Source: Ruminiclostridium herbifermentans
GTDB lineage: Bacteria > Bacillota > Clostridia > Acetivibrionales > DSM-1351
Assembly: GCF_005473905.2 (NCBI RefSeq)
Contig: NZ_CP061336.1
Coordinates: 3,340,501-3,404,500 of the forward strand
DNA: 64,000 bases
Reading direction: 5' to 3'
Both the position numbers and the translations under genes were made by a program. Shown one piece after another: positions 34,263-56,900 of the stretch. Numbering within the stretch: the stretch's first letter is position 1; each line of letters starts with the position of its first letter. The notes under the pieces were generated by a model that searched no databases, was not told the origin of the DNA, and saw nothing but the letters and a program-made list of their open reading frames with translations.

Positions 34263-35760
34263 GTAAGCGTCAAATAGAAAAGCACCTTGACAAAACCTAT
34301 CGAGCAGCACTATTACATGATTCTGGCACGTTAGATGGAAGTAAAAGTTCAAGTGCATTAATATTATTGTGAATATCCCAATTGGGAGCATTTTTGAAAA
34401 TATACACAAGATAAGCATAAGGATTTAAGCCGTTCTCTTTTGCGGTCTCTATGATACTGAAAATTACAGCACTTGCCTTGGCCCCACGAGGTGTATTTGC
34501 AAAAAGGAAGTTTTTTCTGTCTATCACAAACGGCTTGATGGAACGCTCAGCACGGTTGTTGCTAATTTCTAGTCTGCCGTCAAGAAGATAACGCTCCAGA
34601 TATCTACGTTGTTTAATCATATAATGAACTGCCTGTCCCAAACTGGTTTTGGGTGCAGGATTTAAAGATTTTAGCCACGCAAAAAATTCGTCAATCAAAG
34701 GCTTTGCCAGTTCCTGACGTTTTTGAAAGCGCTCATTCGAGTTTAATTTTTGTAAACTGCACTCAATATCAAACAGTCCATCGCAGTACCTCTTACCTTG
34801 GAGGGCTGCAGAGTTTTCCCTATCTTTTGTTGGAAGGACTTTGAGTGCTTCGTCCCATTTGCGTCTTGCGTGTGCCCAACATCCCACAACTGTAATTCCC
34901 TCAGGCAAATTGTGATATCCTTTGTATCCATCGGCATGAAGATATCCGCGGAAACCTTTGAGGAATTCTGCAGGATGCTTGGCTCGTCTATCTGGTTGGT
35001 ATTCATATAACACAATAGGATGCTGTTCTTCACCACTTGTCCTATACATCCACATATAACTCTTGTTTTGAGCTGTCTTTTCAGGTTCGTGTAGTACTTG
35101 AAGCGTAGTCTCATCAGCGTGAAGTACTTCGCGTGTACAGAGTATTTCTCGTAATGCGTTATATACTGGCTCCAGCCAATCCTCGGAACATTTGAGCAGC
35201 CAGTTTGACATGGTTTGCCGTGATAAATATATTCCATTTCTACGAAAATCCTGCTCTTGTCGGTACAGAGGTGCTCCCATAACAAACTTTTGTGTCATTA
35301 TTTGTGCTACAGCTTCTGGTGATGCAAAACTGCCCTTAATAACGGGATTGTCTACAGGTGCTTTAAGGATTGGAACCCCACAAGCATTTTTTTCACAATC
35401 TCGGCAAGCATATGTATACCTAACATGTTCTACAATAACTGCTTTTGCAGGTATCAGCTTTAATTCACGTCGGACATCCTTACCCATAATATGTAGAGCC
35501 TCGCCACATTCTGGACATTTTTGTTTATCCTTCGGAAGAGTATGCTCAACCACTTCCACAGGCAAATCCGGTGGAAGTCTATCGGCATTTTCTTTTGCTT
35601 TTTTGCGGTAATGGCGTTCTATTTCTACAAGCTCTGGCTCTGCCTTTGCTTCATCTGCAGTTGCTTCAGCTTCATTAAATAGGTTGATTTGGTCGTATTG
35701 GCTTTTTTCACTGGAAGCACCAAATTGATGATGTTTTGCAAGGCGCACCTGTTCCATAAA

Positions 35761-35766
35761 CCAGTC
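35761..35766. repeat. Target-site duplication of the IS21 element (left)
   Basis: CCAGTC directly adjoins the left terminus TATAAAG and is repeated at 37943-37948 after the right terminus TTTATA. Confidence 0.8.
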
Positions 35767-35853
35767 TATAAAGTTATAATTAATAATGTACAAATAATAT
35801 TAAATAAAAATGTACAAATGGTATGATTACAGGGTACAAAAGGAGGTACCCTA

Positions 35854-37146
35854 ATGATTATCAAAAGTAGTATCATAACAGATTTAAATATTCAAACTGT
35901 CAAGGATCTTTATAAGTTAAAACCATTTATGGAGGATACAACATTGAAAGTTAATAAAAGCCAGATCGCAAGGGAACTTGATGTCGATAGGCGTACAGTT
36001 GATAAATACATTAATGGCTTTCATAAGGCCAAATCCAGAGAATGCGTGAATTGTATCACTGCTTACTATGACATTATTGCAGAGCTTCTATCTGATAACA
36101 GCCAGCAGATATTTTATTACAGAAGAGTTTTATGGCAATACCTAGTAGACAATCATTCTTATGAAGGGTCTTATGTGAATTTCTGCTACTATCTAAGAAA
36201 ATATCCTGAACTAGACTCATATTTCAAAAAAAGCAGACCTTCAAACGCAAATAACGTAACCATACGTTATGAAACAGGAATGGGTCAACAAGCACAACTA
36301 GACTGGAAAGAGTCTATACGATTTACTCTTTCAACAGGTGAAATAATAGAAGTAAACATATTTGTATTATTGCTGTCATATTCACGTTTTAGAGTGTACA
36401 GGGTATCTCTATCAAAAACACAGGATATATTATTTTCATTCCTTGATGATGCGTTTAACACGTTTGGAGGTGTTCCAAGTGTGATTGTCACCGATAATAT
36501 GAAAACAGTTATGGATGAGCCAAGAACAGAGTATACAGAAGGGAAAATAAATATAAAATTTAAGCAGTTTGCGGATGATTATGGTTTTAAGGTGCACCCT
36601 TGTATTGCAGGAAGACCAAGAACAAAAGCCAAAGTAGAAGCACCAATGAAACTACTTGATGAGATAAGAGCCTACAATGGAAAACTTGATTACAAGGAAC
36701 TTAATGAGTTGGTCACACGAATAAATAACAGAGTAAACATGCAGGTAAATCAAGGTACAGGTCGTATTCCATTAATGTATTTCAACAAGGAAAAAGCTTT
36801 CTTAGGAAGCTTACCAGCCTATACCATAAGAAAGCCTTATCAAATAACTCCACATAAAGTAAAAGTTAATTCATCCAGCATGTTCAACCATAATGGATGC
36901 CAGTATTCTGTACCACCAGAATACGTTGGAAAAACTCTTACTTTACAAGTGTATGATGGTTACATACATGTTTATTATAACATAGAATTAATAACTATCC
37001 ATACCCTTAGTAAAAAGAAACTTAATTACCTTAATGAACACTATACTGCTATAGCAAGAAAATCGCATGCATTTAAGGAAGAAAATATAAATGAGCGGGC
37101 AAAAGAAAACTTACAGGTTATAGGAGAAGTATACAGTTATGAATAA
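35854..37146 (+). CDS. istA: IS21-family transposase IstA
   Basis: 430-residue transposase. An N-terminal helix-turn-helix (KSQIARELDVDRRTVDKYI) binds the element ends. The rve/DDE core follows with the first Asp in AQLDWKES, the second in VIVTDNMKTV and the Glu in KAKVEAPMKLL. The C-terminal part is the Mu-like beta domain (YSVPPEYVGKTLTLQVYDGYIHVY). It is intact, with GGAGG before the ATG, and overlaps istB by 8 nt. Probably active or recently active. Confidence 0.93.
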   Translation: MIIKSSIITDLNIQTVKDLYKLKPFMEDTTLKVNKSQIARELDVDRRTVDKYINGFHKAKSRECVNCITAYYDIIAELLSDNSQQIFYYRRVLWQYLVDNHSYEGSYVNFCYYLRKYPELDSYFKKSRPSNANNVTIRYETGMGQQAQLDWKESIRFTLSTGEIIEVNIFVLLLSYSRFRVYRVSLSKTQDILFSFLDDAFNTFGGVPSVIVTDNMKTVMDEPRTEYTEGKINIKFKQFADDYGFKVHPCIAGRPRTKAKVEAPMKLLDEIRAYNGKLDYKELNELVTRINNRVNMQVNQGTGRIPLMYFNKEKAFLGSLPAYTIRKPYQITPHKVKVNSSSMFNHNGCQYSVPPEYVGKTLTLQVYDGYIHVYYNIELITIHTLSKKKLNYLNEHYTAIARKSHAFKEENINERAKENLQVIGEVYSYE

Positions 37147-37891
37147 CAGTACATACAAACAGTTATGCAGGAATATGGAGATTCTTGGCCTTGGGCAAAT
37201 GGTAATTCATCTTGATGAAATATCTAATTTTGTGACATCCAACAATCTTTCGTTTACAGAAGGACTACTGAGACTTAGTAATTACGAAGTTGATTTTAAG
37301 GAGGCCAAAGCATCTAGATCTATGATTAAAGCAGCAGCATTTCCTTTTGTAAAGGAATTGAAAGATTATGATTTCAATTTTCAGCCGTCAGTAAATCAGC
37401 AAGAAATACAAGAACTTTGCACGCTTGGTTTTCTTGAAAGAAATGAGAATATAGTATTTCTTGGTCCAAGTGGTGTTGGAAAGACTCATCTGGCAACATC
37501 AATAGGAATAGCTGCAGCAAAGAAACGTACTAGCACATATTTTATCAAATGTCATGATTTATTGCAGCAACTAAAGAAAGCAAAACTGGAAAACAGACTT
37601 GATGTAAGACTCAGACACTTCTGCCATTACAGACTACTTATCATTGATGAACTTGGCTACTTACCCATTGATAAAGAAGATTCTAATATGTTTTTTCAGC
37701 TTATAGATATGAGATATGAGAGAAAAAGTACCATTCTTACAACAAACATGAATTTCAACGAATGGGATGGTGTATTCTATGACGCAGTTGTAGCCAATGC
37801 AATACTTGACAGGGTATTGCACCATGCACATGTAATATCTATATCTGGAAAGTCATACAGATTAAAGGATCATATGAAGCAAGGAGAATAG
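37139..37891 (+). CDS. istB: IS21-family helper ATPase IstB
   Basis: 250-residue AAA+ ATPase that assists IstA in target selection. Walker A GPSGVGKTH, Walker B LLIIDELGYLP, and sensor I ILTTNMNF are present. Translationally coupled to istA by an overlapping start. Confidence 0.95.
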   Translation: MNNSTYKQLCRNMEILGLGQMVIHLDEISNFVTSNNLSFTEGLLRLSNYEVDFKEAKASRSMIKAAAFPFVKELKDYDFNFQPSVNQQEIQELCTLGFLERNENIVFLGPSGVGKTHLATSIGIAAAKKRTSTYFIKCHDLLQQLKKAKLENRLDVRLRHFCHYRLLIIDELGYLPIDKEDSNMFFQLIDMRYERKSTILTTNMNFNEWDGVFYDAVVANAILDRVLHHAHVISISGKSYRLKDHMKQGE

Positions 37892-41429: not shown

Positions 41430-44400
41430 TTATAACTCGTATTCTATTTTAACATTCTCCCTCTTCAGATCCAACTCTAATTGTCTGTATATTTGCAGCA
41501 GTATGTCATATTCTGTAGCCTTTAGCTTTTTAACCATTTCTATAAAATCTAATATTGAGTTTTTGTTATTTGTGATATCAAGATTTTTATAGGAAAACTC
41601 CAAGCAAACAAGTCTAATAGAATTTGCTAGGCTAACAACTTCAAGATAAGACTCCTTTAACCTTATAATATCACCAGTAAGCTTATTTTTTGATATAATG
41701 TATTCAAGTCTTTTATATATGCCTTTTTTATGCTCTGCTAATAAGTGAATTCCTCTGTAATCAATAACATTCTTACCCTGTAAAAGACTTTCTAAATCTT
41801 TTAATAGTACATCATATACCTTTATTCCGTAAACAACTCTACTGCTGGAGTATTCAAAGGTATATAATCTATCTCCGTCTCCTACAGAGAAAATATAGCT
41901 GCTTAGTTCCCTCATAAATCTTTCATTGCTAAAGGGGTATTCAGCTTCAAAGCTATTAGGCCTTACTATTTGTATTGCAGAGGTATCACACCAAGGACTA
42001 GATTCTTTATAATGTATTTTACCATTATTATAAGCTTCTAAAAACTGAGCATACTCAAAGGTCATCATTGTAAAAAACATATCCTTATTAAAGCCTATTG
42101 CCTTAAGTTCTTCAGTTTCGTTATCATACCCATAAATCAAAGACGAATGCACAAAATGGGTTTTGTTGTATGCCCATTTGTTTGAAAGGTAATACTCATC
42201 TACACTAATTATGAGATAGAAGCCCATATTAATCTTTTCTATAATAAAATCAATTATATTATCCACTTTATCAAGTAAATGATATCCTAGACAAACCATC
42301 TCCATAATCTCACTGCTGCAATCACGAGGTTCTAGATAATTAATTTCTGAAACGCCATTATCATCAGTATATGAGAAAACCTGTATAAATCTGCTGTAGT
42401 ACCATGGCAGATATTTGTCATAAGCAAGAACAACACAAAGTGGTAAACTCCTATGCAGGTAGGTAGTAATATCTGTCTGCATTTCAACCTTTAGTTCTAG
42501 CATCTGAGGATATTCAGTACTTTTATTAAATAGTGAGATATTTGAATTATTAGTACCAATATGACTCATGTATTCTATCTCCATATTCTTTTTTTGCACT
42601 TGTAAAGAATTATCAGTTAATTGGTCTTTTGCATTTAATTCTGAACTCTCATTCAGTAATAAACCTTCAGAAGATTCTATAACCTGTTTTGAATATACGT
42701 ATGCCTCATTCACACAAATATCAAGTGCTTTATTTATTTGCATTTCTTCTTCTATATTTAAATCAAGTACTAATTGTTTATATATTCTAGATAATATGTC
42801 AAAGTCAGCATTCTTGAGTTCTTCTACCAATTGCAATATATTTTCAATGAGATTTTTGAGATTTTCTGATAATCCCTCAGTTCTAATGTTACTATTTTCT
42901 AATTCTAAGCTTTTCAAGCGTAAATTATTTGATAGTTCAACAACCTTTAAGTACTCCTTGTGCAGTCGGGTAATTTCCCCTGTTAAATTGTTTCTAGAAA
43001 TCACATAAGCAATTCTATCATATATACCCTTTTTGTGTTCCCAAATAAAATGCATTGCTCTATAATCTATAGTTGCCTTACCTATAAATAGGTTTTTAAG
43101 ATTTTGAATTGCCGCATCATACACCTTCATTCCAAAAACAGCATGGTGATCTGAATACATAAATGCGTATAGCCTTCTGTAATCACCTTTTGATAAAAGA
43201 TAATCCCTTATTTCACTTAAGAAGTACGCATTACTAAATGGGAACTCCTCATCAAAATTATTTTGCCTTATAAGTGAAATAGCAGACAACTCACACCATG
43301 GTGCTGTTTCCTTATAGTGAATCTTACCACTTTCATATGCTTCTTGAAATTCATCATAATCAAATACTATTCTTTGGAAAATCATATTCTGGTCAAAACC
43401 AATTGCTTTAAGTTGTTTCTTTTCGTTGTCATAGCCATAAATCATAGATGAATGTACAAAGTGTTGCTTCTTGTATGCCCATTTATTAGGGAGATAGTAT
43501 TCATCAACAAATATTGTTAGGCAATAGCCTAAATTTATCTTATCTACAATAAAGTCAATAATATTTTCCCTATGATGTTTTAGTAAATGATACGCCAAAT
43601 TGACCACATGCATTACTTCAATAGGACATCTGCATGGTTCCATAAAGTCAATAAACAGACCTCCACTTCTATCAATAAACCCAAAAATCTGTATAAAACT
43701 ACTATAAAACCATGGCTTGTATTTTTCATATGGCAGTATTGCACAAAGAGGTAAACTCCTATGGAGATATGTGGTAAATTCTCTTTGCAATATAATCTCA
43801 TGTTCCATTGATACGGGATATCCATCTCGCTTGCCACAAACAAGACTTTTATTTTTAGTGTCCACATCAGATGTTTCATCTATCTGTATGTCAAGCTGCT
43901 GCATCTCATCCGAAATATCAACAATCTTATCTTGTTCCGATTCTTCAGTTTTTTCGGTTATGCTTACATTTTCTGTGTATTCATCAATAAACTCAGCTAT
44001 CTCTCTCACTGTAGGATTACTATACAGCTTGCTTGCAGGTAAATCCATATTAAACTCTTGGTTGACAAAGGAAACAACCTGTATTGCCTTAATAGAATCT
44101 CCTCCAAGGTCAAAGAAACGGTCATTTACTCCCACTTTGTCTAGGGCCAATATATCTTGCCAAAGTGATACCAACTTCTCTTCTGTGATATTTGCAGGCG
44201 CAATATATTGAGTGCCTGTTCCAACTGTTCTGTCTGGTTCAGGAAGCGCATTTCTGTCAACTTTCCCATTAGCTGTCATAGGAATACTATCTAGCATTAC
44301 GAAAAATGAAGGAACCATATAGTCAGGAAGTTCTCTGCTTAAATGTTTTTTTAGTTCACTTATATCTGGTTGACTATCTGAAACAATATATGCAGTTAAA

Positions 44401-47400
44401 CTCTTCAATCCGTTATTATCCTCTCTTACAGTAACAACTACATCTTTAACCTGTTCATGCTTTAATAGACAGCTTTCTATTTCTCCAAGTTCAATTCTAT
44501 AACCTCTAATTTTAACCTGGTAATCTTTTCTCCCTGAAAATTCTATATTTCCATCTGGAAGCCATTTTGCAAGGTCACCTGTTCTGTACATACGTTTGTA
44601 TATTTCGCTTGTGCATTGACCGTTAAGGTGTTGGTCATTATTGCTGTCCATATGGCATTCATTATTTGAATAAAATGGATTTAAGACAAACTTTTCAGCT
44701 GTCATCTCAGGGCTGTTGAGATACCCTCTTGCAAGTCCATCTCCTGAAATACAAAGTTCTCCAATAACTCCTGTGGGTACTATATTATTGTCCTTATCCA
44801 AAATATAAATCCTTGTATTTGCAAGCGGCTTACCAATAGGAACATTTTTGCCCACAGGATGGTGTGATTTGTACTTGTAGAATGTTGCACAAATAGTGTC
44901 TTCAGTTGGCCCATAGCCGTTTATAATACTAATTTCCGGATTAAGCTTTATAAATTCCTCCAGAACATAATCTTTTATTCCCTCAACACCTACCAGCATT
45001 TTGTTAAGTTTCACACTATCCTTATTTTTCATAAGCTGCTGTGAAACCTCCCAAAGTATTGTAGGTGGAATGTAAGCAAAGGTTATTTCTTTTTCAATAA
45101 GTGTTCTGCATAAGCTTCTAATATCAGAAACCATCAACTCATCAAATAGCACCAATGTAGCCCCAAAGGCTAAAGGAAGGAAAAGTTCACATACGCTGAC
45201 ATCAAAAGAAATACTTGTGAGGCTTAATCCTTTGTCTTTTGAGCAAATAATAGTATCAAAGGTATTATTTATACAGAACAAGAAATTCATCAAAGAGTGA
45301 TGTTCTACTATTACTCCCTTTGGCTTACCAGTTGAACCTGAGGTATAAATTACATATGCAGCATTTGAAGGATCAACACTTACATCTAGTTTTTCACTAT
45401 TATCTATATACAACTCTTGTTCTTCAAGATTAATAATATCTATTCCTATTTGAAGTTTTTCCAGCCTATCCAAATATTCTGACAGCGTTAATATCATTTT
45501 TGCCCCGCTGTCCTTAATCATATATTCTATTCTCCCATCTGGATTTATGGGATCCATAGGAAGATATGCTGCTCCTGATTTCAATATCCCCATAATTCCA
45601 ATGATTAGTTCTAATGATCTATGTGTACTTATTGCAACAATATCTTCTTTATTTATTCCCTTCTCTCTTAGAATTTTTGCAATGCAGTCAGCCCTTCTGT
45701 TTAACTCATAGTAGCTAATCTTTTTCTCACCAATCTCAACTGCAATTCCATCAGGATTTTTTATCGCATTTTCTTCTAATAATTTATGTATAACAGTATT
45801 CTTTGGATATTCAAAGCTAGTGTTATTAAACGTTGATATCAGTAACTTCTGCTCATTTTCTGACATCATGTTTATGTCTTTAATAAAAATATCAGGATTC
45901 TTTGTAACTATATCAAAAATATTTATAAAATGCTTTACAAGCCTTTCAACAGTTTCTCTTCTAAATAGTTTTGTACAGTATTCCATGTCAAATATAATTT
46001 TCTTACTATTCTCAACTTTCTTACCGTCCTCAAAATCTTGAACTGATATATTTAGGTTTAAATCAAATTTAGATATATTGTTTTCAAACCCTATCTGTCC
46101 AAATTTAAGTCCCTCTGCCTCCAGCTTCAGCTTTTCAGTATTCTGCAGAGTAAGCATAGTGTCAAACAGAGGTGTTCTGCTCATATCTCGTTTTATATTA
46201 ATTTTATTAATTAGGTCTTCAAAAGGATAATCACTGTTTGCAAAAGCCTCAAGAGCAATCTGCTTTACTTCTTGTAAATATTGTACAAATGTTTTTTCTG
46301 AACTTGGATTACTCCATAATACAACTGTATTTACAAACATACCAATAACATTCTGTAGTTCCTCCATTTTTCTATCTGTTATAGGAGAAGCTACAATAAT
46401 TTCATCCTGACCCGTATACTTTGAAAGCAATATCTTATATACACTCATAAGAACCATGTATAAGGTTGTTCCTGTTTTTTCAGCGAGTTTCAGAATTCTT
46501 TCGCTTAAGTCGTTGTCGGCCTCAAAAATAACCCTATCTCCTTCAAAACTCTGTATAGAAGGTCTCTGAAAATCTGTTGGCAGCTCAAGTACTGGTATTT
46601 CTCCCTCAAACTTTTTGAGCCAATATTCTTCCTGCTTTTTCATATTATCTGAATTTAATTGCATATTTTGCCATACAGCATAATCAGCATACTGAACATC
46701 AGGTTCTTTTAATTCTTTGCCAAGATAAAGCTGCACTAATTCCTTGTCAAATATAACAGAAGACATTCCGTCTGTTACAATATGATGCATATCAACAAAT
46801 AATACATGCTTCATATCATTTATTTTTATAATTTTGCTTCTAAAAAGCGGTGCCTTCTGCAGGTCAAAAGGTTTTACAAAGGACTTGAGAAGTGACGGAA
46901 GCTGATCAGGATCACTACATTCAAGTTCATCTATTTCAAAATCAACCTCTTTATCTACTATCATCACAGGTGTATTATCTCTGATATGGAAAGACATTCT
47001 GAAAGCATCATGCCTATTAACAATTTCTTTTACAGCACATTTGAGCCTGCCGATATTGAGACTTCCTTCTATAGATATAGCCATTGGCATATTATAGCTG
47101 TTTCCAATTCCTTCGAATTTATTTATTACGTACATTCTTTTTTGGGCAGAAGAAAGAGGATAATAATCTCTTTCCTCAACTCTTACAATGCTTGGCAATT
47201 GAGTTTCATGACTCTTATTATCATTACTGTCCACAAAAGCAGCAAGTGATGAAATAGTGTAGTGCTCCATAATATTTTCTACATCAATTTTGAATCCAGT
47301 GATTTTCTTGTATTCATTTGCAATTTGAATGGCAATTATTGAATCTCCACCTAATTCATAAAAATCATCATTAATATCAATTTCATCATATCCTAAAGCT

Positions 47401-49526
47401 TTGCACCATATATTTCCCATTAATATCTCAGTATCAGAGTATATGCCATCTTCTTTTCCCAGCAGCTTGAAGCTTTTTTCATCTGCAAAGCCCTCAGCAT
47501 TTTCCTTAGTGTACTCTGTGAATATTTCTTCCCTCTCACCCTTTTGACTGTCAATTAATTTCTTTATCTGCTCCATTAATTTTGAATCCCGCTTCATAGC
47601 TTGAATTATTGTGTCTGTGTCAGCAATACTGCTGTTTTCAGGTACATTAATCCAACACCTTTTTCTCTCAAAGGGGTATTCTGGCAGTCTTATTCTATTA
47701 ACAGTGATGTTTTTATAAATCAAGCTAAAGTCTATCTCATTACCGCTTACGTATTCTTTACATAAATTATTTAAAACACTTCTGTCCATTATAGACGTAT
47801 TATTTAAAGCTTCGATAGTTGAAGCTGCAGCCACTTCATCAAAAGCTAAATGTTCAGATTTTTGCTCTGTTGCTTTTTCTGAAAAATAAATTCCATTTTC
47901 AGCATAAGTTTTAAGCCCTTCGTTAATAAGCTTATTTAACGCTGCTGTCAGTTCCTCCTTATTGTCAAATACAATGGCTAGTCTTATATTATAGTGCCAT
48001 CTTCCAGTGTTTGCACTATAGCACATATCACTAAGATTAATAGCAGTATTTTCTTTAATAAACTCATTGTACTTAATTACCAACTGTTTTAGAGAATTTT
48101 CATTTTTCGCTGATAAAGTTAAAATATTTGATCCAATCTCTTCTGTTTTCTCATAGCTGTCATTTTGCGGAGCTTCTTCAAGGATAATATGACAGTTTGT
48201 TCCACTCAAGCCAAAAGCGCTTACCCCACATCTTCTTGGAAAATCATTATTCCAATCTGAAAGCTTATTATTAACATATACAGGTGACTCTTCAAAATCA
48301 ATTTTTCTGTTAGGTCTCTCAAAATGCAGACTTGGAGGCAATTTTTTATATTTAAGAGATAGTACTGATTTAATAAGTCCAATAATGCCGGAAGCACAAT
48401 CAAGATGTCCAATATTGGTTTTAACAGAACCAATAGCACAAAATTGCTTTTTATCAGTATACTTTCTGAATGCTTTTGTTATCCCATCTATTTCTATAGG
48501 ATCACCTAGTTCAGTACCTGTTCCATGAGCTTCTATGTAGGATACTGTTTCAGCATCTATCCCTGCATCCTCCAATGCCGCAATAATTACGTCTCTCTGA
48601 GCTTGTGCATTGGGCGCAGTAATACCAATACAGTTACCGTCCTGATTTGCAACTGTACCTTTTATTACTGCGTATATATTATCACCATCCCGAAGTGCCC
48701 TGTGTAGTGGTTTTAAAATAACTGCAGCAACCCCTTCACCCATACCTGTTCCGTCTGCGCTGTCATCAAATGTTCTAGCTCTTCCGTCAGAGGATTCAAT
48801 TCCAAGCTTTTTGCTGCTTTTTACTGGAAGTATGTTTATTTTTACACTTCCAGCTATTGCGACATCGCATTCCTTACTTCTTAATGCTTTACACGCCATA
48901 TGTACCGCTACCAGAGATGATGAACAAGCAGTATCAACACATATTGAAGGTCCTTTCAAATCAAGCAAATAAGAAATCCTGCTTGGAATTATAGAAGAAA
49001 GATTTCCCGGGAGTGCATCAATTAGCAATTCAGGATTGACTTTTTCTATAAGCCTTTTATAATCAAATAAAGCATCTGCACTGTATCCAAAATATACACC
49101 TGTACAGCTGCCTTTAAGTTTTCCATTTCCATATCCTGCATCTTCAACAGCCTTCCATACAGTTTCAAGAAATATTCTTTGTTCTGGACTCATCAAACTA
49201 GCTTCCTTAGGCGAAATTCTAAAAAAGCTGTAATCAAATTTGTCTATATCTTCAAAATAGGCTCCAACATTGTATTCCTTGCTCTGCTTATTGATTCCAA
49301 CCAGTTCTGCAAAAACATCTGCATCCTTTTGTCTTGATTTTGGAAAATAGTCAACGCAATCTCTTCCTTCTATCAAGTTATTCCAAAACATTTCAATATT
49401 TTCAGCCATAGGAAGCCTTGCAGCTATTCCAATAACAGCAATATCCTTTGTAGTTTCTTCTTTTATCATATCACTTGCATTGTCAGTATCACCCAGCTGC
49501 TCAAATATTAATGAATCTAAATCCAT
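41430..49526 (-). CDS. Hybrid PKS-NRPS: KS-T-C-A-T with two C-terminal papain-like(?) domains
   Basis: 2698-residue megasynthase. Ketosynthase about 28-455 with Cys201 (DTACSSS), His334 (EAHGTGT) and His374 (KTNIGHLD). There is no acyltransferase; the post-AT linker motif LPEYPFERKRCW (about 614) follows directly. Carrier domain with Ser729 (ELGGDS). Condensation domain about 785-1215 with active MHHIVTDG (914-920). Adenylation domain about 1240-1765 (YTSGSTGKPKG, YRTGDL); pocket residues read D-V-C-Y-L-G-G-I-C-(K), no known code recalled. Carrier with Ser1811. Then two tandem ~360-residue copies (about 1905-2275 and 2340-2698), each with TTYLHRSLPLC, VDEYYL.NKWAY and HFVHSS(L/M)IYGYDNE. Last gene of the operon; needs an AT and a phosphopantetheinyl transferase in trans. 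No thioesterase. Confidence 0.93.
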   Translation of the reverse strand: MDLDSLIFEQLGDTDNASDMIKEETTKDIAVIGIAARLPMAENIEMFWNNLIEGRDCVDYFPKSRQKDADVFAELVGINKQSKEYNVGAYFEDIDKFDYSFFRISPKEASLMSPEQRIFLETVWKAVEDAGYGNGKLKGSCTGVYFGYSADALFDYKRLIEKVNPELLIDALPGNLSSIIPSRISYLLDLKGPSICVDTACSSSLVAVHMACKALRSKECDVAIAGSVKINILPVKSSKKLGIESSDGRARTFDDSADGTGMGEGVAAVILKPLHRALRDGDNIYAVIKGTVANQDGNCIGITAPNAQAQRDVIIAALEDAGIDAETVSYIEAHGTGTELGDPIEIDGITKAFRKYTDKKQFCAIGSVKTNIGHLDCASGIIGLIKSVLSLKYKKLPPSLHFERPNRKIDFEESPVYVNNKLSDWNNDFPRRCGVSAFGLSGTNCHIILEEAPQNDSYEKTEEIGSNILTLSAKNENSLKQLVIKYNEFIKENTAINLSDMCYSANTGRWHYNIRLAIVFDNKEELTAALNKLINEGLKTYAENGIYFSEKATEQKSEHLAFDEVAAASTIEALNNTSIMDRSVLNNLCKEYVSGNEIDFSLIYKNITVNRIRLPEYPFERKRCWINVPENSSIADTDTIIQAMKRDSKLMEQIKKLIDSQKGEREEIFTEYTKENAEGFADEKSFKLLGKEDGIYSDTEILMGNIWCKALGYDEIDINDDFYELGGDSIIAIQIANEYKKITGFKIDVENIMEHYTISSLAAFVDSNDNKSHETQLPSIVRVEERDYYPLSSAQKRMYVINKFEGIGNSYNMPMAISIEGSLNIGRLKCAVKEIVNRHDAFRMSFHIRDNTPVMIVDKEVDFEIDELECSDPDQLPSLLKSFVKPFDLQKAPLFRSKIIKINDMKHVLFVDMHHIVTDGMSSVIFDKELVQLYLGKELKEPDVQYADYAVWQNMQLNSDNMKKQEEYWLKKFEGEIPVLELPTDFQRPSIQSFEGDRVIFEADNDLSERILKLAEKTGTTLYMVLMSVYKILLSKYTGQDEIIVASPITDRKMEELQNVIGMFVNTVVLWSNPSSEKTFVQYLQEVKQIALEAFANSDYPFEDLINKINIKRDMSRTPLFDTMLTLQNTEKLKLEAEGLKFGQIGFENNISKFDLNLNISVQDFEDGKKVENSKKIIFDMEYCTKLFRRETVERLVKHFINIFDIVTKNPDIFIKDINMMSENEQKLLISTFNNTSFEYPKNTVIHKLLEENAIKNPDGIAVEIGEKKISYYELNRRADCIAKILREKGINKEDIVAISTHRSLELIIGIMGILKSGAAYLPMDPINPDGRIEYMIKDSGAKMILTLSEYLDRLEKLQIGIDIINLEEQELYIDNSEKLDVSVDPSNAAYVIYTSGSTGKPKGVIVEHHSLMNFLFCINNTFDTIICSKDKGLSLTSISFDVSVCELFLPLAFGATLVLFDELMVSDIRSLCRTLIEKEITFAYIPPTILWEVSQQLMKNKDSVKLNKMLVGVEGIKDYVLEEFIKLNPEISIINGYGPTEDTICATFYKYKSHHPVGKNVPIGKPLANTRIYILDKDNNIVPTGVIGELCISGDGLARGYLNSPEMTAEKFVLNPFYSNNECHMDSNNDQHLNGQCTSEIYKRMYRTGDLAKWLPDGNIEFSGRKDYQVKIRGYRIELGEIESCLLKHEQVKDVVVTVREDNNGLKSLTAYIVSDSQPDISELKKHLSRELPDYMVPSFFVMLDSIPMTANGKVDRNALPEPDRTVGTGTQYIAPANITEEKLVSLWQDILALDKVGVNDRFFDLGGDSIKAIQVVSFVNQEFNMDLPASKLYSNPTVREIAEFIDEYTENVSITEKTEESEQDKIVDISDEMQQLDIQIDETSDVDTKNKSLVCGKRDGYPVSMEHEIILQREFTTYLHRSLPLCAILPYEKYKPWFYSSFIQIFGFIDRSGGLFIDFMEPCRCPIEVMHVVNLAYHLLKHHRENIIDFIVDKINLGYCLTIFVDEYYLPNKWAYKKQHFVHSSMIYGYDNEKKQLKAIGFDQNMIFQRIVFDYDEFQEAYESGKIHYKETAPWCELSAISLIRQNNFDEEFPFSNAYFLSEIRDYLLSKGDYRRLYAFMYSDHHAVFGMKVYDAAIQNLKNLFIGKATIDYRAMHFIWEHKKGIYDRIAYVISRNNLTGEITRLHKEYLKVVELSNNLRLKSLELENSNIRTEGLSENLKNLIENILQLVEELKNADFDILSRIYKQLVLDLNIEEEMQINKALDICVNEAYVYSKQVIESSEGLLLNESSELNAKDQLTDNSLQVQKKNMEIEYMSHIGTNNSNISLFNKSTEYPQMLELKVEMQTDITTYLHRSLPLCVVLAYDKYLPWYYSRFIQVFSYTDDNGVSEINYLEPRDCSSEIMEMVCLGYHLLDKVDNIIDFIIEKINMGFYLIISVDEYYLSNKWAYNKTHFVHSSLIYGYDNETEELKAIGFNKDMFFTMMTFEYAQFLEAYNNGKIHYKESSPWCDTSAIQIVRPNSFEAEYPFSNERFMRELSSYIFSVGDGDRLYTFEYSSSRVVYGIKVYDVLLKDLESLLQGKNVIDYRGIHLLAEHKKGIYKRLEYIISKNKLTGDIIRLKESYLEVVSLANSIRLVCLEFSYKNLDITNNKNSILDFIEMVKKLKATEYDILLQIYRQLELDLKRENVKIEYEL
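41433..43814 (-). other. Duplicated unrecognised domain at the NRPS C-terminus
   Basis: Copy 1 covers roughly 42702-43814 and copy 2 41433-42509. Aligned Cys1928/Cys2364 in HRSLPLC, Asp2008/Asp2443 in VDEYYL and His2025/His2460 in HFVHSS keep nearly equal spacing (Cys to His 97 and 96). The pattern recalls papain-like C39 and butirosin BtrH-type acyltransferase domains. The last ~100 residues of each copy look helical. The copies differ widely in residues, so the duplication is old. Confidence 0.6.
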
Positions 49527-49553: not shown

Positions 49554-50885
49554 TCAATTTATACTTTCATTAGCTTGATTAATCAAGTTTATTTCTTCTT
49601 TTTGAAATATTTCAGATTTCAAAAATTCTTTGAATATTTTATTTTTTGATGCTACTATACCAAAGATAAGCAATGCTGCTCCTGAAATCCCTGTAATATA
49701 ATACCATTGAAATTTTTCCATCAATATCCCATACAACCACATACCCGGAGGTGCAGTAATATATAAAGCTGACATAAACACCCCGAAAATTCTCGCCCTC
49801 ATTTCAGCTGGAACCTGTAGTTGGAAATATGTAATCATCGGAATATTCTGAATAGCATTAGCAGCTCCGAATATCAACAAAGTTATTCCAAATACAACAG
49901 TTATAATCCACCTAGATCCATTTTCAAAAACAGATGCTTCTGGGAAAACACACACAGCTACCATTACAGCCTGTATAGAAAATAACACAAAAAATCTCTT
50001 TAATAATGGACTTGTATTCTTGAAGGATGAAACAACCAATGCACCAATTATTGTACCAATAGCACAGGACGCCTGTATAAACGATAGCTGTATACCTGAA
50101 ACCTTCAATATATTGTAATTTATAAAGGGCAATATCATCTGAAGAAAAGGCAATAACACAAAATCAGCACCTGCTGCAAATACTAAGAAGAATGCAATTG
50201 TTCTGTTTTCCACCAAGTATTTGTATGTCATTATTACATCCGAAATATATTTTCTTTTTTCATTTACATCTGTTTTTTCTTCACTTACTTTTTCTTCACT
50301 TACTTTTTCTTCACTTATAAATTTAATAAAAATTTCTGAAACTCCAGAACCGATGAAGAAAACACAGTTAATCAGCATTATATTACTTATACCGATTAAT
50401 CCATATAAAATAGCTCCCAATACAGGCCCTGCTATATCAATTACAGCACTGATTGACTGAAGAGTAGAATTAAGCTTTGGCACTGTTTCATTTTTAACAA
50501 CGCTTGGTATTGATGCATTACAGGCTAGAGCAAATACTGACTGAATTGTCCCAAGCAATAAAACATAAACGCCAAAAATCATAATATTATCTGGAATTAT
50601 TTTAAATACTATAAAGAACATCAGTATAGATAATCCAGTAATAATATCTGTTAATACCATAATCTTTTTCTTATCATGTCTGTCTACAAAAGCTCCAGCC
50701 ACCAAGTTAACTACAATTCTAGGCAATACAGATAAGCCTATAATAAACGAAAACGTAGCTGCACTTCCTGTAACATCAAGAACATAAAGGCTTAGTGCAA
50801 AATGAAATACACTTGAACCAAGGGCAGATACTAATCTTCCCATAGCCAGCAAAATAAAATTTATTTTAAAAGTTTTATTATCCAC
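49554..50885 (-). CDS. MFS transporter (probable lipopeptide exporter)
   Basis: 443 residues with about 12 membrane segments, of the MFS_3 / enterobactin-exporter-like group. The loop 2-3 signature appears as GAFVDRHDKKKIMV. It sits in the operon between the two synthetases (23 and 27 nt gaps), which argues for export of, or self-protection from, the product. The central cytoplasmic loop carries three exact SEEKV repeats at the protein level. Confidence 0.88.
   Translation of the reverse strand: MDNKTFKINFILLAMGRLVSALGSSVFHFALSLYVLDVTGSAATFSFIIGLSVLPRIVVNLVAGAFVDRHDKKKIMVLTDIITGLSILMFFIVFKIIPDNIMIFGVYVLLLGTIQSVFALACNASIPSVVKNETVPKLNSTLQSISAVIDIAGPVLGAILYGLIGISNIMLINCVFFIGSGVSEIFIKFISEEKVSEEKVSEEKTDVNEKRKYISDVIMTYKYLVENRTIAFFLVFAAGADFVLLPFLQMILPFINYNILKVSGIQLSFIQASCAIGTIIGALVVSSFKNTSPLLKRFFVLFSIQAVMVAVCVFPEASVFENGSRWIITVVFGITLLIFGAANAIQNIPMITYFQLQVPAEMRARIFGVFMSALYITAPPGMWLYGILMEKFQWYYITGISGAALLIFGIVASKNKIFKEFLKSEIFQKEEINLINQANESIN
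50274..50318. repeat. 15-bp x3 minisatellite inside the MFS gene
   Basis: TTTTTCTTCACTTAC occurs three times in a row (last base of the third copy differs), in frame, encoding SEEKV repeats in the central loop of the transporter. It can expand or contract without changing the frame. Confidence 0.9.
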
Positions 50886-50908: not shown

Positions 50909-53900
50909 CTATTTTTTCTGCATTATCGCAGCATTTATAAATTTGATATAATTCTCACCTAGCTCTTTTATCTTTGCAGACTTCAAAATAGCATTATTGA
51001 AATCAAAATGTATAACTGGATATCCGTTAATTGTATTAAAATCAATTACTAAATCAAAGTAATCAAGATAGCTTGCTAAATTTGAATTATTATTTACATT
51101 AATAAACAGCAATATTTCATTATTTAATTTTTTAGTATTCATTGTGCTAATATTTCTTAATTGCAAAGTATCAGTGTCCATAGCAGCTTTAACTCTTTTT
51201 GCAAGTTCAGCCAACTGCTTCGCCCCAGAAGTATCTACTTTTACAGGGCACACTTCCTCTCCCTTTCCAATATTAAGGCAAACCACAGACTGTTTCGTAA
51301 TTTGATGAAGAAGATGCACAAGTAATGCTATCAAAATGTGCTCAACCTCATAATCACTGCACCCTTCCAATCTCTTTATGATCTCATACATATCCTTCCT
51401 AAATTGATATCCAAAAGAAGATGCCACCGATTCAACCGATGCTTCGTTTTTAAAGTAATCAGCATTCAGAACAGTTTTAACAGGAGTTACACTTTTCCTG
51501 CTACTATTGCTGCTATCAATAAACTGAGCAAGGCTTGATATTGATGGGTTTGCAAACAGATCAGTTACCTTAATTCCGATTTTATACTCTTCTTCAAGCT
51601 TTGAATGCATACTTACAAGAAGAAGTGAATTCCCACCTAAGTCAAAGAAATTATCATTAATACCAACTGTATCAATGTTCAATAATTCCTTCCACAAAGC
51701 TTCTAACTTCTTCTCTGTTGCAGTATTTGCTGCTACGTACTCTGTACCGGTATTAATTTTGATTCCTTCAGGTTTTGGCAAAGCTTTTCTGTCCGCCTTT
51801 CCATTTGAAGAAAGAGGTATCTTGTCAAGCTTAATGAAATACGCTGGAATCATATATTCTGTTAAATTTTTAGTCAAAAATGCTCTTAATTCATTTACAG
51901 CAAGTTCCTCATCTGATACATAATATGCACATAAATACTTACTGCCATCTTTTTTGTCAAGTGCTGCTACCACCGCCTCCTTAATAGCAGTATGCTTCAA
52001 TAGTTCTGCTTCTATCTCTCCTAGTTCTATTCTGTTTCCTCTGATTTTTACTTGGAAATCAAGTCTTCCAAGATACTGTATATTTCCATCAGGCATCCAC
52101 TTTGCCAAATCACCTGATTTGTACATTAATGGATAATTTGTAATAGAGCTAAATGGATTAGGTACAAACTTTTCAGAGGTAAGCTGTTCTCTGTTCAAAT
52201 AGCCCCTTGCCAATCCATCTCCAGCTATACACAATTCTCCCGGCACTCCAATAGGACAAAGCCTATTATTCTTGTCAATAACATAAAGGTGAATATTGTC
52301 TATTGGTTTTCCAATCGGAATCTCTTCATACTCCTTGTCTATTGAGCAATCAAAATAAGATACATCTATAGAAGCCTCTGTCGGTCCATACAAATTGTGC
52401 AGCTTCGTTCCGTTTTCTCTTAACAAAAGTCTGTTAAATCTCATAACCTGCTGTGCTCCTAATGCCTCTCCACTAGCAAATACCTGCTTTAACGACTTTA
52501 GCCTTTTTAAATCCACTTTTCCGTCTATATATTCTAAAAACATATTGAGCATTGAAGGTACAAAGTGCATAGTTGTTATTTTATGCTCTTCTATTGCTTG
52601 TACTATTGCCTCAGGATCCTTTTCTCCGCCCGGCTCTAAAAAGTGTACAGCTGCTCCGTTCAGTGCCCACCAAAATTGCTCCCACACTGATACATCAAAG
52701 GTATATGGTGTTTTTTGAAGAATTACATCTCCTTCACCAATAGGATACATTTTCTGCATCCAGTTAAGTCTGTTTATTAGTGAATAATGTTCTATAATAA
52801 CACCCTTAGGAGTTCCTGTTGAACCAGAAGTATAAATTATATATGCAGGATTACGTGAATTATTTACACTTTCACAGTCTATAGCATTATCATGACTATA
52901 TAAACTATCATCATTTAAATTAACTAGCTTTTCCTCAGATATAATGTCATGTTCAGTTATCAAGCTTATAAATTTTTCCTGAGTGAGCAACAGCACTGCT
53001 CCACTATCCTCAAGCATAAATTTTATTCTCTCAACTGGATTATCTGGATTTAATGGAAGGTATGCTGCTCCAGATTTCAAAATTGCCATTAACGCTGTAC
53101 TCATATCCAGAGAACGTTCCATCAGCACAGCTACTATCTTTTCAGCACACGCTCCTTTTTCTCTTAAAGTATATGCAAGTTTATCAGACCTTTCATCAAT
53201 TTCTCTGTAAGTCAGACTGCTGCTGCCAAAGGATACAGCTAATTTATTAGGTGTTCTTGCAGCCTGCTGTCTGAAAAGTCTGTTAATTGTTTCTTCCTTT
53301 GGATACTCTGCCTTCGTATCATTAAACACTTTTAATATCCTGTTTTTCTCCACATTAGAAACCATATCAATTTCTTCAATTCTCTTTTTAGGATTTAAAG
53401 CCACAGCTTCAAGTATTCTAATAAAGTGACCAGCCAAACGGATAATAGTTTCTTCTTTAAATAAAGAAGTACTATATTCAATATTCAGCCTTATATCCTC
53501 ATTGTCTTCAACCGCTTCAATTGTCAAATCAAATTTTGAAACGTTGTTTTCAATATTGTATCCGCTAAACTTAAGCCCTTCTATTTCCATACTTGGAATT
53601 CCCATATTTTGCAGAACAAACATGGTATCAAATAGAGGATTTCTGCTTAAATCTTTATTGAGTTTTAGTTTATTCACCAATTCTTCAAAAGGGTAAGCCT
53701 CATTTTCAAATGCTTCTATTGATTTTTCTTTTACCTCAGCAAGAAACTCTTCTATAATCTTTTTGCCCTCTGGCTTATTTCTTATAGCAACTGTGTTTAC
53801 AAACATTCCTATAATATTATCCAAATCAGCATGTTGTCTTCCCGCAGTTGGGCAACCTACAACAATATCCTCCTGGTCGGAATACTTAGAAAGTAATATA

Positions 53901-56900
53901 TTGTAAGCTGCCAGCATTATCATATATAGTGTCAAGCCTGTGTTCTTTTCCAACTCTCTGACCTTCTCTACTACATCAGTTGGAATATTCATGGATATTT
54001 TCTTTCCATTAAATTTTTGAATTGTTGGCCTGATATAGTCAGTTGGCATATTAAGAACAGGTATATTGTCATTAAATTCATTGAGCCAATAAGCTTCTTG
54101 CTTTTTTAACTCACCCTTTTCAAATAGTTCATCCTGCCATTCACTATAATCCTTATATGTAATTTTAAGTTCATCTAAATTTTTATCTGTATATAAATCA
54201 ACGAAGTCCTTAACTAAAATCACTGATGAAAATCCATCCGATACAATATGATGCATATCATACATCAATATATGCTTGTCCTTTGCCAATTTAATCAGCT
54301 GTACTCTAATAAGCGGAGCTTTACTGAGTTCAAAGGGTCTTACAAAAGCCCGTAATATTTCTGGAATCTCATCCTGTTGTGCTTCAAGTACATTAATATC
54401 AAAATCTGTTTCCTCATGTATAGTCTGTACAGGCTGACCGTCAATCATGTGGAAGGATGTTCTGAGAGTCTCATGCCTGTCAATCAGCTTTTTGAACGCA
54501 GTCTTAAATCTGACTAAATCAAGTTCACCTTCAATCATAAGCGCACCAGGCAAGTTATAAGCAGTCCCGCCATCTTCAATTTTATTGAGCAAATAAATTC
54601 TCTTTTGTGAAGGTGAAAGCTTATAATACTCTTTTGGAGTTACCTTTTTAATCTGCTTAAATTCCTTTTGTCCGTTGTTATTAATGTACTCAGCAATACT
54701 TCTGATTGTTGTAAGGCTGAAAATATCCCTTAATTTTATATCAACTCCAAATTCCTTATGAATCTTTGTTTCCAATACAGTTGCTTTTAAGGAATGTCCT
54801 CCTAATTCAAAGAAATCGTCATCTATACCCACTGATTCGACATTGAGTATCTCACCCCATAGTGATGCCAGCCTTTTCTCAACATCTGTTCTAGGCGGTA
54901 CAAAATCTGTACCTGTATTTATTTTTATTCCCTCTGGTTTTGGTAAAGCTTTTCTATCCGCCTTTCCATTTGAAGAAAGTGGTATTTTATCAAGCCTCAC
55001 GAAATATGACGGAATCATATATTCTGCCAAGTTTTTAGCTAAATGTGACCTTAGCATATTTACAGAAAGTTCTACATCTGAGACGTAATATGCACACAAG
55101 TACTTGCTTCCGTCTGTATGGTCGTTTGCTGCTACTACAGCCTCCTTGATGCTCTCATGCTTGAGAAGTTCTGATTCTATTTCCCCTAGTTCAATTCTAT
55201 TGCCTCTAATTTTCACCTGAAAATCAAGTCTTCCAAGATACTGTATATTTCCGTCAGGCATCCACTTTGCCAAGTCACCAGATTTATACATCACCTTATA
55301 ATTTGTATCTGCATAAAATGGATTATCAACAAATTTCTCAGCCTGAAGTTCCGCTCTGTTAAGATATCCTCTTGCAATACCATCACCTGCTATACATAAT
55401 TCTCCCGGTACGCCTATAGGACAAAGCCTGTTATTTTTGTCTAATATATAAAGATTAATATTGTCTATTGGTTTTCCAATTGGAATTTCTTCGTATTCCA
55501 TGCTTGTAGAACAATCAAAATAGGATACATCTATAGTTGCCTCTGTTGGTCCATATAGATTATGAAGTCTTGTTCCGTTCTCTGCTAATAAAAGTCTGTT
55601 AAACCTATTTACCTGCTGTGCTGCTAAGGCTTCTCCGCTGGCATATACCTGCTTTAAACTCTTTAGGCATTTTAAATCAGCTTTGCCATCAATGTACTCT
55701 AAGAATATATTCAGCATGGAAGGTACAAAATGCATAGTTGTAATTTTATGCTGCTCTATTGCTCTAGCTATTGCCTCAGGATCCTTTTCTCCGCCTGGCT
55801 CTAAAAAGTGTACTGCTGCTCCGTTTAGTGCCCACCAGAACTGCTCCCAAACAGATACGTCAAAGGTATACGGTGTCTTCTGCAGAATAATATCTCCTTC
55901 CCCAATTGGGTACATCTTCTGCATCCAGTTAAGTCTATTTACAAGAGAATAATGTTCAATAACAACTCCCTTTGGAATTCCTGTAGAGCCTGATGTATAA
56001 ATCACATATGCAGCATTACGGGCATTGTTTACATTTTCTAAATCAGCATAATAGTCATTTGCATTAATAGAAGCTGAAATATTATCTTCACAGTAAATAT
56101 TAGGGTCATTAAGATTAACTAATTTTTCTTCTGAAATAATATTAAACTCAGATATATTATTCAGAAATTTTTCCTGTGTAATTAAAAGCACTGCTCCGCT
56201 GTCCTTGAGCATAAATTTTATCCTATCTGTAGGATACTCAGGACTTATTGGTAAATATGCTGCTCCTGATTTTAGCACAGCAAAGAGAGCTACACTCATT
56301 GTAAGTGACCGCTCAATCATAACCGCAACTATTTTTTCAGCACATGCACCTTTCTTTCTAAGCATAACCGCTAGTGTATCCGATTTCTGGTCTAATTCTC
56401 TATAGGTTAAGAATTTATCACCATAGGATACAGCTAAAATATCAGGAGTTTTGAAAGCCTGCTGCCTGAAAAGATTATTTATTGTTTCTTCCTTTTGATA
56501 TTCTGTCCTAGTGTTATTAAATCCCCTTAATATTTGATTTCTCTCAGCCTCAGACATCATATCCATTTCTTCAATTAATGTATTTGGATTTGATACTACT
56601 CTATTTAAAATATTTATAAAGTGCTGAGACATCCTATTTATAGTGTCATCTTTAAACAAATTTGTATTATACTCAATAAAACAGTCAAAACCGCCATCTT
56701 CAGCATTGTAAATATCAAGCTTTAAATCTAGCTTTGAAGTATTAGTTTTCAATTGGTACCTATCTATCTTTAAGTCCTTCATTTGCAGATTTAATTGATT
56801 TTCAAACTGGTTATGATAAATAAGCATAGTATCAAAAAATGGATTTCTTGACTTTTCAATTCTGCCGCTAAACTTTTCAACCATTAAATTGTAAGGATAA

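Follow-up and report, generated by a model that had tools for sequence, protein, structure and literature searches.

The window analysed here, 64,000 nucleotides of Ruminiclostridium herbifermentans (contig NZ_CP061336.1, positions 3,340,501 to 3,404,500 of the forward strand), contains the gene for a 2698-residue synthetase (41430–49526, minus strand) which ends, after its last carrier domain, in two related domains named here X1 and X2. On the evidence of structural models, the fold of both is that of the BtrH-like papain group of carrier-protein-dependent enzymes. The fold, the terminal position, the recurrence in other bacteria, the purifying selection and the conservation of residues have direct support. 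We tentatively propose, at somewhat less than an even chance, that X1–X2 is the terminal release or transfer unit of a lipopeptide assembly line, that it would work in one step without an acyl-cysteine, and that the tandem would serve as a pseudo-dimer.

The open reading frame (ORF) is present as an earlier, sequence-only reading had described it. The ORF list and Pfam give the protein the order KS-ACP-C-A-PCP-X1-X2, that is, ketosynthase (KS, residues 27–403), acyl carrier protein (ACP), condensation (C, 786–1229), adenylation (A, 1250–1755) and peptidyl carrier protein (PCP) domains ahead of the pair. Two PP-binding stretches were found, the best being the last carrier (residues 1783–1847; 43986–44180, minus strand, as are all domain and residue positions below) with its GGDS motif at 1808; the second carrier was recognised by a GGDS at 726. 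No Pfam family scored above cut-off in the approximately 850 residues past the last carrier. X1 covers residues ~1901–2258 (42753–43826), as delimited by the X1/X2 alignment, the AlphaFold2 model and structure alignment, and X2 residues ~2336–2690 (41457–42521), as delimited by the X1/X2 alignment and a model of PCP-X1-X2. An alignment of the two over 353 positions shows 52% identity [E 2e-138], a value which rejects chance likeness. Neither matched any condensation, thioesterase (TE), reductase or epimerization (E) model of Pfam or NCBIfam, which bears out the earlier description of two repeats assignable to none of these classes; the motifs it listed are present, and the Cys–His spacings it gave were recounted and are exact (Cys1928–His2025, 97; Cys2364–His2460, 96).

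The same reading had suggested a papain-like domain of the C39 or BtrH type. The C39 profile gave no match to X1 or X2 at E values up to 1, but the BtrH part of the suggestion stands on structural grounds. AlphaFold2, run on X1 with 37 alignment rows, returned a papain-like fold with a predicted local distance difference test (pLDDT) score of 92.4 and a predicted template modelling (pTM) score of 0.90. In a Foldseek search only three AziU3 chains [best E 1e-6] and one CtaG chain [5e-4] fell below E 0.001. VIA-align paired the model with CcbD [Z 20.1, 301 aligned, 3.4 A], AziU3 [Z 18.6–19.1] and CtaG [Z 15.4–16.2]; these alignments span 276–303 residues and take in both the papain-like part and a C-terminal helical domain. 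The next rows were helical bundles (10.5), followed by papain-like peptidases and the phytochelatin synthase Alr0975 (8–9). CcbD, the best match in VIA-align, was not among the best 50 Foldseek matches by E-value. It is this whole-length match to CcbD, AziU3 and CtaG which argues that the BtrH-like family assignment is right. Neither the X1 sequence nor the X profile gave a useful match to PDB sequences. A 924-residue model of PCP-X1-X2 matched the BtrH-like fold in both copies, with lower scores (pLDDT 70, pTM 0.45).

BtrH itself, from the butirosin pathway, was assigned to the papain fold by an earlier survey which saw in it a potential transacylase (PMC2922099), and another paper (PMC10318531) describes it as an acyl carrier protein:aminoglycoside acyltransferase that lies near C39. 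It is a separate protein, and the resemblance of X1–X2 to its family, BtrH_N (PF14399), remains below threshold: a match at residues 2421–2472 scored 20.4 bits in the whole protein against a cut-off of 29.7, and the single domains scored 13.7 and 15.1 bits. One X-like Ruminiclostridium relative (G007) reached 29.9 on this model with neighbours in frame.

The lincosamide condensing enzymes CcbD and LmbD are the closest structural comparison. PMC12945683 has CcbD joining carrier-bound proline to an aminosugar as an amide, by a ping-pong mechanism with a Cys-His-Glu triad, in a pocket which takes in residues of the next monomer and where Asp114 touches the acceptor. X resembles CcbD over the whole length of the fold, and CcbD acts on a carrier-bound acyl group. 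According to the same source, these enzymes differ in being separate proteins with an intact triad and a ping-pong mechanism, whereas X1–X2 forms a pair at the C-terminus of a larger protein, probably lacks the cysteine and shares only 8–9% identity with CcbD. CtaG, the closthioamide peptidyl transferase of the same genus, is also a separate protein; PMC6772006 proposes that it shifts an acyl group between carrier proteins. Its residues C11, H128 and D144 were mutated in deposited structures, while the corresponding cysteine place of X is probably a tyrosine.

AziU3, of the azinomycin pathway, was the best Foldseek match, and PMC12559475 describes AziU3/U2 as an aziridine synthase in function. 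One might therefore regard X as a tailoring domain which alters the carrier-bound chain before release, much as AziU3/U2 makes the aziridine, leaving the release to a separate thioesterase; the genome does have type II thioesterase genes. We consider this quite improbable. X stands last and never between modules in 29 copies within large proteins, the AziU3-like proteins keep their Cys (AziU3 itself keeps His and Asp) where X probably has none, and the cluster is without a TE.

X mostly stands at the end of its protein. The X1 query, applied to 197 related genomes at E ≤1e-3, matched 33 of them, counting its own, although some of the weakest matches are BtrH-like proteins and not X. X1 alone found no relative in the genome contigs, and an alignment query gave 36 named loci, here numbered with the prefix L. 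These lie in Ruminiclostridium, Acetivibrio, Anaerobacterium, Anaerocolumna, Cellulosilyticum, Pseudobacteroides, Paenibacillus, Cohnella and other Bacillota, and in one Streptomyces and three Candidatus Latescibacterota. A carrier followed by X within one ORF occurs in 13 of the 36 loci, and likewise in L057 with the frame split; X follows a C-type domain in two (L048, L049) and is a separate protein in 20, several of which adjoin nonribosomal peptide synthetase (NRPS) genes. The window, the 36 loci, two stretches from the same genome and 18 more make up 57 stretches, 51 of which hold X (58 copies, 55 distinct; a few of the stretches represent one and the same cluster, or nearly so). Fifty-five of the 58 copies finish within 20 residues of the ORF end, a count which includes fragments from split frames (L057, L134) and a stretch end (L132). 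The three exceptions are the X1 of both known tandems and one 572-residue protein in L132. In proteins of more than 700 residues 27 of 29 copies are terminal, and only the X1 of each tandem is not. An X placed internally in a synthetase was looked for in the 18 further stretches and not seen.

Pfam found TubC_N docking domains on two of eight separate X proteins, both from Anaerobacterium chartisolvens (L040 [3e-16] and L046 [1e-11]). Pfam scans of the 2698-residue protein and the cluster genes turned up neither a TE nor a reductase, nor any release domain of another kind. The search for TEs in the 36 loci used a single phmmer query, taken from L058, and found one further TE, in L061; diverged TEs could escape it. 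The earlier proposal that these domains end the line where a TE would be expected is thus upheld in the window, and the arrangement recurs in other Clostridia and in Paenibacillus. X shares its end-of-line place with the condensation and thioesterase domains of NRPSs, which differ in having unrelated folds; X has no Pfam match. The terminal position, the docking domains and the kinship with carrier-dependent enzymes together suggest that X would act on the chain attached to the last carrier and release it by transfer.

In several stretches variants of the fused arrangement were observed. Two-domain carrier–X proteins of 476–477 residues, with no A domain, occur in L125 (6288–7715), L126 (5512–6942), L130 (8346–9776) and L131 (9139–10566), those of L125 and L126 next to an adenylation-thiolation-X (A-T-X) protein. 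In Acetivibrio straminisolvens (L057 7754–11075, L134 11952–15273) an A-T-X gene is broken over two frames within X, either by a sequencing error or by a real break.

Both members of the tandem appear to have been kept for some time. Ruminiclostridium sufflavum (L035) has an orthologue of 2625 residues which also ends in X1–X2, each copy being 65% identical between the species, compared with 80% for KS, 72% for A, and 33% and 28% for the linkers. The gene order is the same, with ORFs of 4024 and 432 residues, the X1–X2 protein and an ORF of 730 residues, the 4024-, 432- and 730-residue ORFs having been compared by size only. In a tree X1 groups with X1 (support 100/100), X2 with X2 (95/82) and both pairs together (100/95), so the duplication predates the species split and both copies were retained. 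The ratios of nonsynonymous to synonymous substitution (dN/dS) are rough, synonymous sites being near saturation: 0.158 for X1 and 0.110 for X2, beside 0.056 for KS, 0.116 for A, 0.157 for the carrier (T) and 0.521 for the T–X1 linker. Both copies are under purifying selection. A decaying passenger domain is rejected by these ratios and by the retention of both copies in two species. The tandem was seen in these two species only, while single X domains are common.

The sequence-only reading took Cys1928 (43743–43745) of X1 and its counterpart Cys2364 (42435–42437) of X2 as nucleophiles. Here the evidence divides, and we doubt the assignment. By a structural reading the catalytic Cys place of the relatives is occupied by Tyr1920 (43767–43769) and, in X2, by Tyr2356 (42459–42461), a placement on which hhalign and MAFFT disagree; Cys1928 is indicated by its motif, by MAFFT and by conservation. 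In X1-domain numbering Tyr1920 is position 20, Cys1928 position 28 and His2025 (43452–43454; His2460 in X2, 42147–42149) position 125. Two groups of relatives were used. The Cys-bearing set consisted of 15 proteins hand-picked from 30 loci, 14 of which were aligned (the 536-residue L092 was left out), and in these 14 BtrH-like Ruminiclostridium proteins Cys, His and Asp are invariant. The AziU3-like set came from 12 loci read among 31 matching genomes. A profile alignment between the sets [6e-19] paired their cysteines, and the AziU3-like L107, which has 88% identity with AziU3 across 208 residues, reads SCLHGTL where X has TYLHRSL.

In the X1 model the first helix runs from residue 21 to 30, so that Tyr1920 stands just before it and Cys1928 is the eighth residue inside. 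The first residues aligned by VIA-align place CtaG C11 and CcbD C19, taken as the catalytic cysteines from mutant names in the titles of the structure entries, at model positions 19–21 if ungapped. The Cys–His spacing in 26 Cys-bearing relatives is 104–134. In the 37 aligned X domains the distance to His is 101–118 (mode 104) from position 20 and 93–110 (mode 96) from position 28; it is below the relatives' minimum of 104 in 32 of 37 domains when counted from position 28 and in two of 37 when counted from position 20. None of the 55 X copies (three gapped there) has Cys at position 20. On this sequence and model evidence Tyr1920 and Tyr2356 quite probably occupy the place of the catalytic Cys.

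Several alignments speak against this assignment. Joint MAFFT alignment in all three modes puts the relatives' Cys on Cys1928, as does global hhalign, with near-zero confidence at that point. Cys28 is present in all 25 carrier-fused copies, two of which are one gene. N-terminal hhalign to the BtrH-like set places the Cys on Tyr20, weakly [E 0.15 and 0.35], and hhalign to the AziU3-like set gives a third N-terminal register [full-length E 1e-5 with low confidence there, N-terminus alone E 0.59]. In a gapless profile scan with the 26 Cys-bearing sequences Tyr20 scored above Cys28 in 36 of 37 domains with the shortest window but in only 12 of 37 with the longest, and the best offset was mostly neither of the two.

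These same data bear on whether the domains are active thiol acyltransferases, in which Cys1928 or Cys2364 would form an acyl-Cys with His2025 or His2460 and the Asp/Asn described below, and pass the chain to an amine in the manner of BtrH and CcbD. The alignments that pair Cys28 with the known catalytic Cys would agree with this, as would the presence of Cys28, His and Asp/Asn145 each in 25 of 25 carrier-fused copies and the Cys-His-Glu or Cys-His-Asp of related terminal domains. We nevertheless think it unlikely, given the position of Cys28 eight residues into a helix of a confident model, the structural alignments and the short spacing to His. Outside the carrier-fused copies, moreover, position 28 holds 16 Cys, 9 Ser, 2 Ala and 1 Gly among 28 readable residues (2 gaps), and small residues alone would fit a packed helix position.

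The remainder of the pocket is well kept. The catalytic His (alignment His125) is present in 37 of 37 X domains and in 18 of 18 Cys-bearing relatives by MAFFT. Asp108, Glu109 and His125 all occur in 25 of 25 carrier-fused copies, the first two being residues 2008/2009 in X1 and 2443/2444 in X2. The 17 residues between Asp108 and His125 equal the spacing of Asp114 and His131 in CcbD. The third place of the triad, on the other hand, aligns with Gly143, which is Gly in 29 of 37 domains and Asp in none, and in the larger set is Asp in one and Glu in one of 55; this tells against the release reading proposed here. Simple loss of the third residue is weakened as an explanation by Asp/Asn145, two residues past the aligned place, which is found in 25 of 25 carrier-fused copies (Asp2045 in X1, Asn2480 in X2) and in the model would sit about opposite the His across a hairpin.

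A helix motif, His2159-x3-Glu2163-His2164 in X1 (43035–43052), is typical of X and not of the Cys-bearing relatives. All 37 domains of one set have His259, Glu263 and His264, and in the larger set of 55 copies the three residues occur 53, 54 and 55 times, respectively. Of 18 Cys-bearing relatives none has His259, one to three have Glu263 and at most one has His264, according to the alignment mode. The helix presumably falls near Arg263/Asp264 of CcbD, which reach into the pocket of the partner monomer; this placement, derived from differences in residue numbering (6 at the His and 3 where the VIA-align alignment ends), is good to a few residues.

A tyrosine in the Cys place together with the retention of the rest of the pocket favours a one-step transfer. 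We infer the catalysis, its acceptor, the one-step mechanism and the pseudo-dimer as follows. The last PCP would dock on X1–X2 and hand the lipopeptidyl thioester to an acceptor bound in the pocket, which might be an amine, an aminosugar or water. His2025 or His2460 would act as base, helped by Asp2045 or Asn2480 and by the Asp-Glu pair 2008/2009 (2443/2444 in X2), in a single step which bypasses an acyl-enzyme. One-step transfer would resemble condensation-domain chemistry and would stand nearer to its logic than to that of a ping-pong acyltransferase. The two protomers which meet in the CcbD active site would be provided by the tandem within a single chain. A number of points, besides the alignments on Cys1928 given above, weigh against this scheme. 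No acceptor gene was identified, and the PCP-X1-X2 model shows no pseudo-dimer and at its pTM is uninformative on how the copies pack; two separate type II thioesterase genes elsewhere in the genome could hydrolyse the chain. That X1–X2 is a new kind of release domain, a papain fold minus its cysteine with a His-Asp/Glu pocket, a His-x3-Glu-His helix, one-step release and a built-in dimer, is a proposition we regard as doubtful.

The surroundings of X elsewhere suggest a further possibility, that X1–X2 is a catalytically dead platform which binds the PCP with its load and brings in or gates another enzyme for the release, such as a type II thioesterase or a BtrH-like protein that has its Cys. 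The Cys having probably been lost from X is in keeping with this, as are the type II TE genes of the genome. A BtrH-like protein or domain accompanies X in 13 of 51 X stretches (some from the same or nearly the same cluster, and two of them weak matches). Several BtrH-like gene pairs with intact Cys-His-Asp adjoin A-T-X genes (L036, L037, L041, L042 and L044; in L051 the second gene is short). A platform would, however, hardly account for His125, Asp108, Glu109 and Asp/Asn145 being fixed in every carrier-fused copy, and 38 of the 51 X stretches, including the window and its R. sufflavum orthologue, have no BtrH-like partner in the stretch read: besides X there is no BtrH-like gene in the window or in L035. 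We judge the platform rather improbable, though less so than the active thiol, and continue to prefer release by one-step transfer.

Cys-bearing BtrH-like domains also end polyketide synthase (PKS) and NRPS proteins. They were found in L056 (4811–9610), L123 (5865–8777), L127 (4849–10770), L129 (3040–10320) and L134 (3430–5592), all with Cys-His-Glu, and in L128 (3–10265) with Cys-His-Asp; the Glu recalls the CcbD triad. They share with X the family and the place after a carrier, and differ in their intact triad. Judged by sequence they make up a probably active type of terminal domain, apparently undescribed. Both forms occur within one stretch in L056, L123 and L134, and the terminal domain of L056 has a sub-threshold C39 match. 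BtrH-like proteins in general are expanded in Ruminiclostridium, where 11 of 11 genomes match with 2 to 17 each, R. herbifermentans with five.

A GT2 glycosyltransferase gene adjoins X, or lies in the same gene run, in five (L037, L038, L040, L041, L102) of the seven outside loci scanned with Pfam, L058 and L065 being the other two; none stands beside the cluster of the window among the genes scanned. One of the five, L102 (7157–9492), belongs to the same genome, ~1.3 Mb away, and has a separate X protein of 398 residues, ~53% identical to X1, followed by the GT2 gene. This X gene is ~11 kb from a 2859-residue frame with an acyltransferase domain.

The 2698-residue gene lies downstream of a gene for a 4028-residue NRPS (50909–62995, minus strand) and of one for a major facilitator superfamily (MFS) transporter between the two synthetase genes (49554–50885, minus strand) [MFS_1, 3e-31], and is followed by an ORF of 722 residues. 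The NRPS has a fatty acyl-AMP ligase-like start and then A, C and PCP modules, with four AMP-binding, three Condensation and four PP-binding domains by Pfam. Its N-terminus resembles fatty acyl-AMP ligase [1.5e-111], yet stays under the NCBI full-length cut-off. Because the partner begins with such a domain, a lipopeptide is a plausible product of this assembly line, as far as sequence can tell.

The KS module (residues 27–770) is without an acyltransferase domain, and the three Acyl_transf_1 matches of the genome all lie outside the window, so the extender unit would need to be loaded in trans. Genes for IS66-type and IS21-type (IstA/IstB) insertion sequence transposases occupy 34297–37891, ~3.5–7 kb downstream of the synthetase gene. 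Two Rce1-like membrane proteins of the CAAX-protease family are encoded upstream of the NRPS genes (L101 871–3233, at and beyond the window edge, just upstream of the cluster).

For the X copies scanned, no Pfam model scored above its cut-off and NCBIfam gave no relevant match, and in the open-licence literature we found no paper that describes a BtrH-type domain joined to an NRPS carrier domain. The fold and its carrier-dependent chemistry are already known; what appears from sequence and models to be new is the use of this fold as a fused terminal domain, its tandem form and a Cys that has probably been lost. The arrangement, in which the sequence-only reading saw a possible new release logic, is no lone oddity, single X domains being common.

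The release step sets whether the product of an assembly line is an acid, a ring, an amide or a conjugate, and X is the last domain in a group of assembly lines of anaerobic Clostridia and Paenibacillus that have yet to be characterised. If X indeed moves chains to amines or sugars, it would offer a handle by which to find and redesign such conjugates. If it does so without a cysteine, it would show that a papain fold can serve in acyl transfer without a covalent intermediate, and the Cys-bearing sisters in the same place would allow a comparison.

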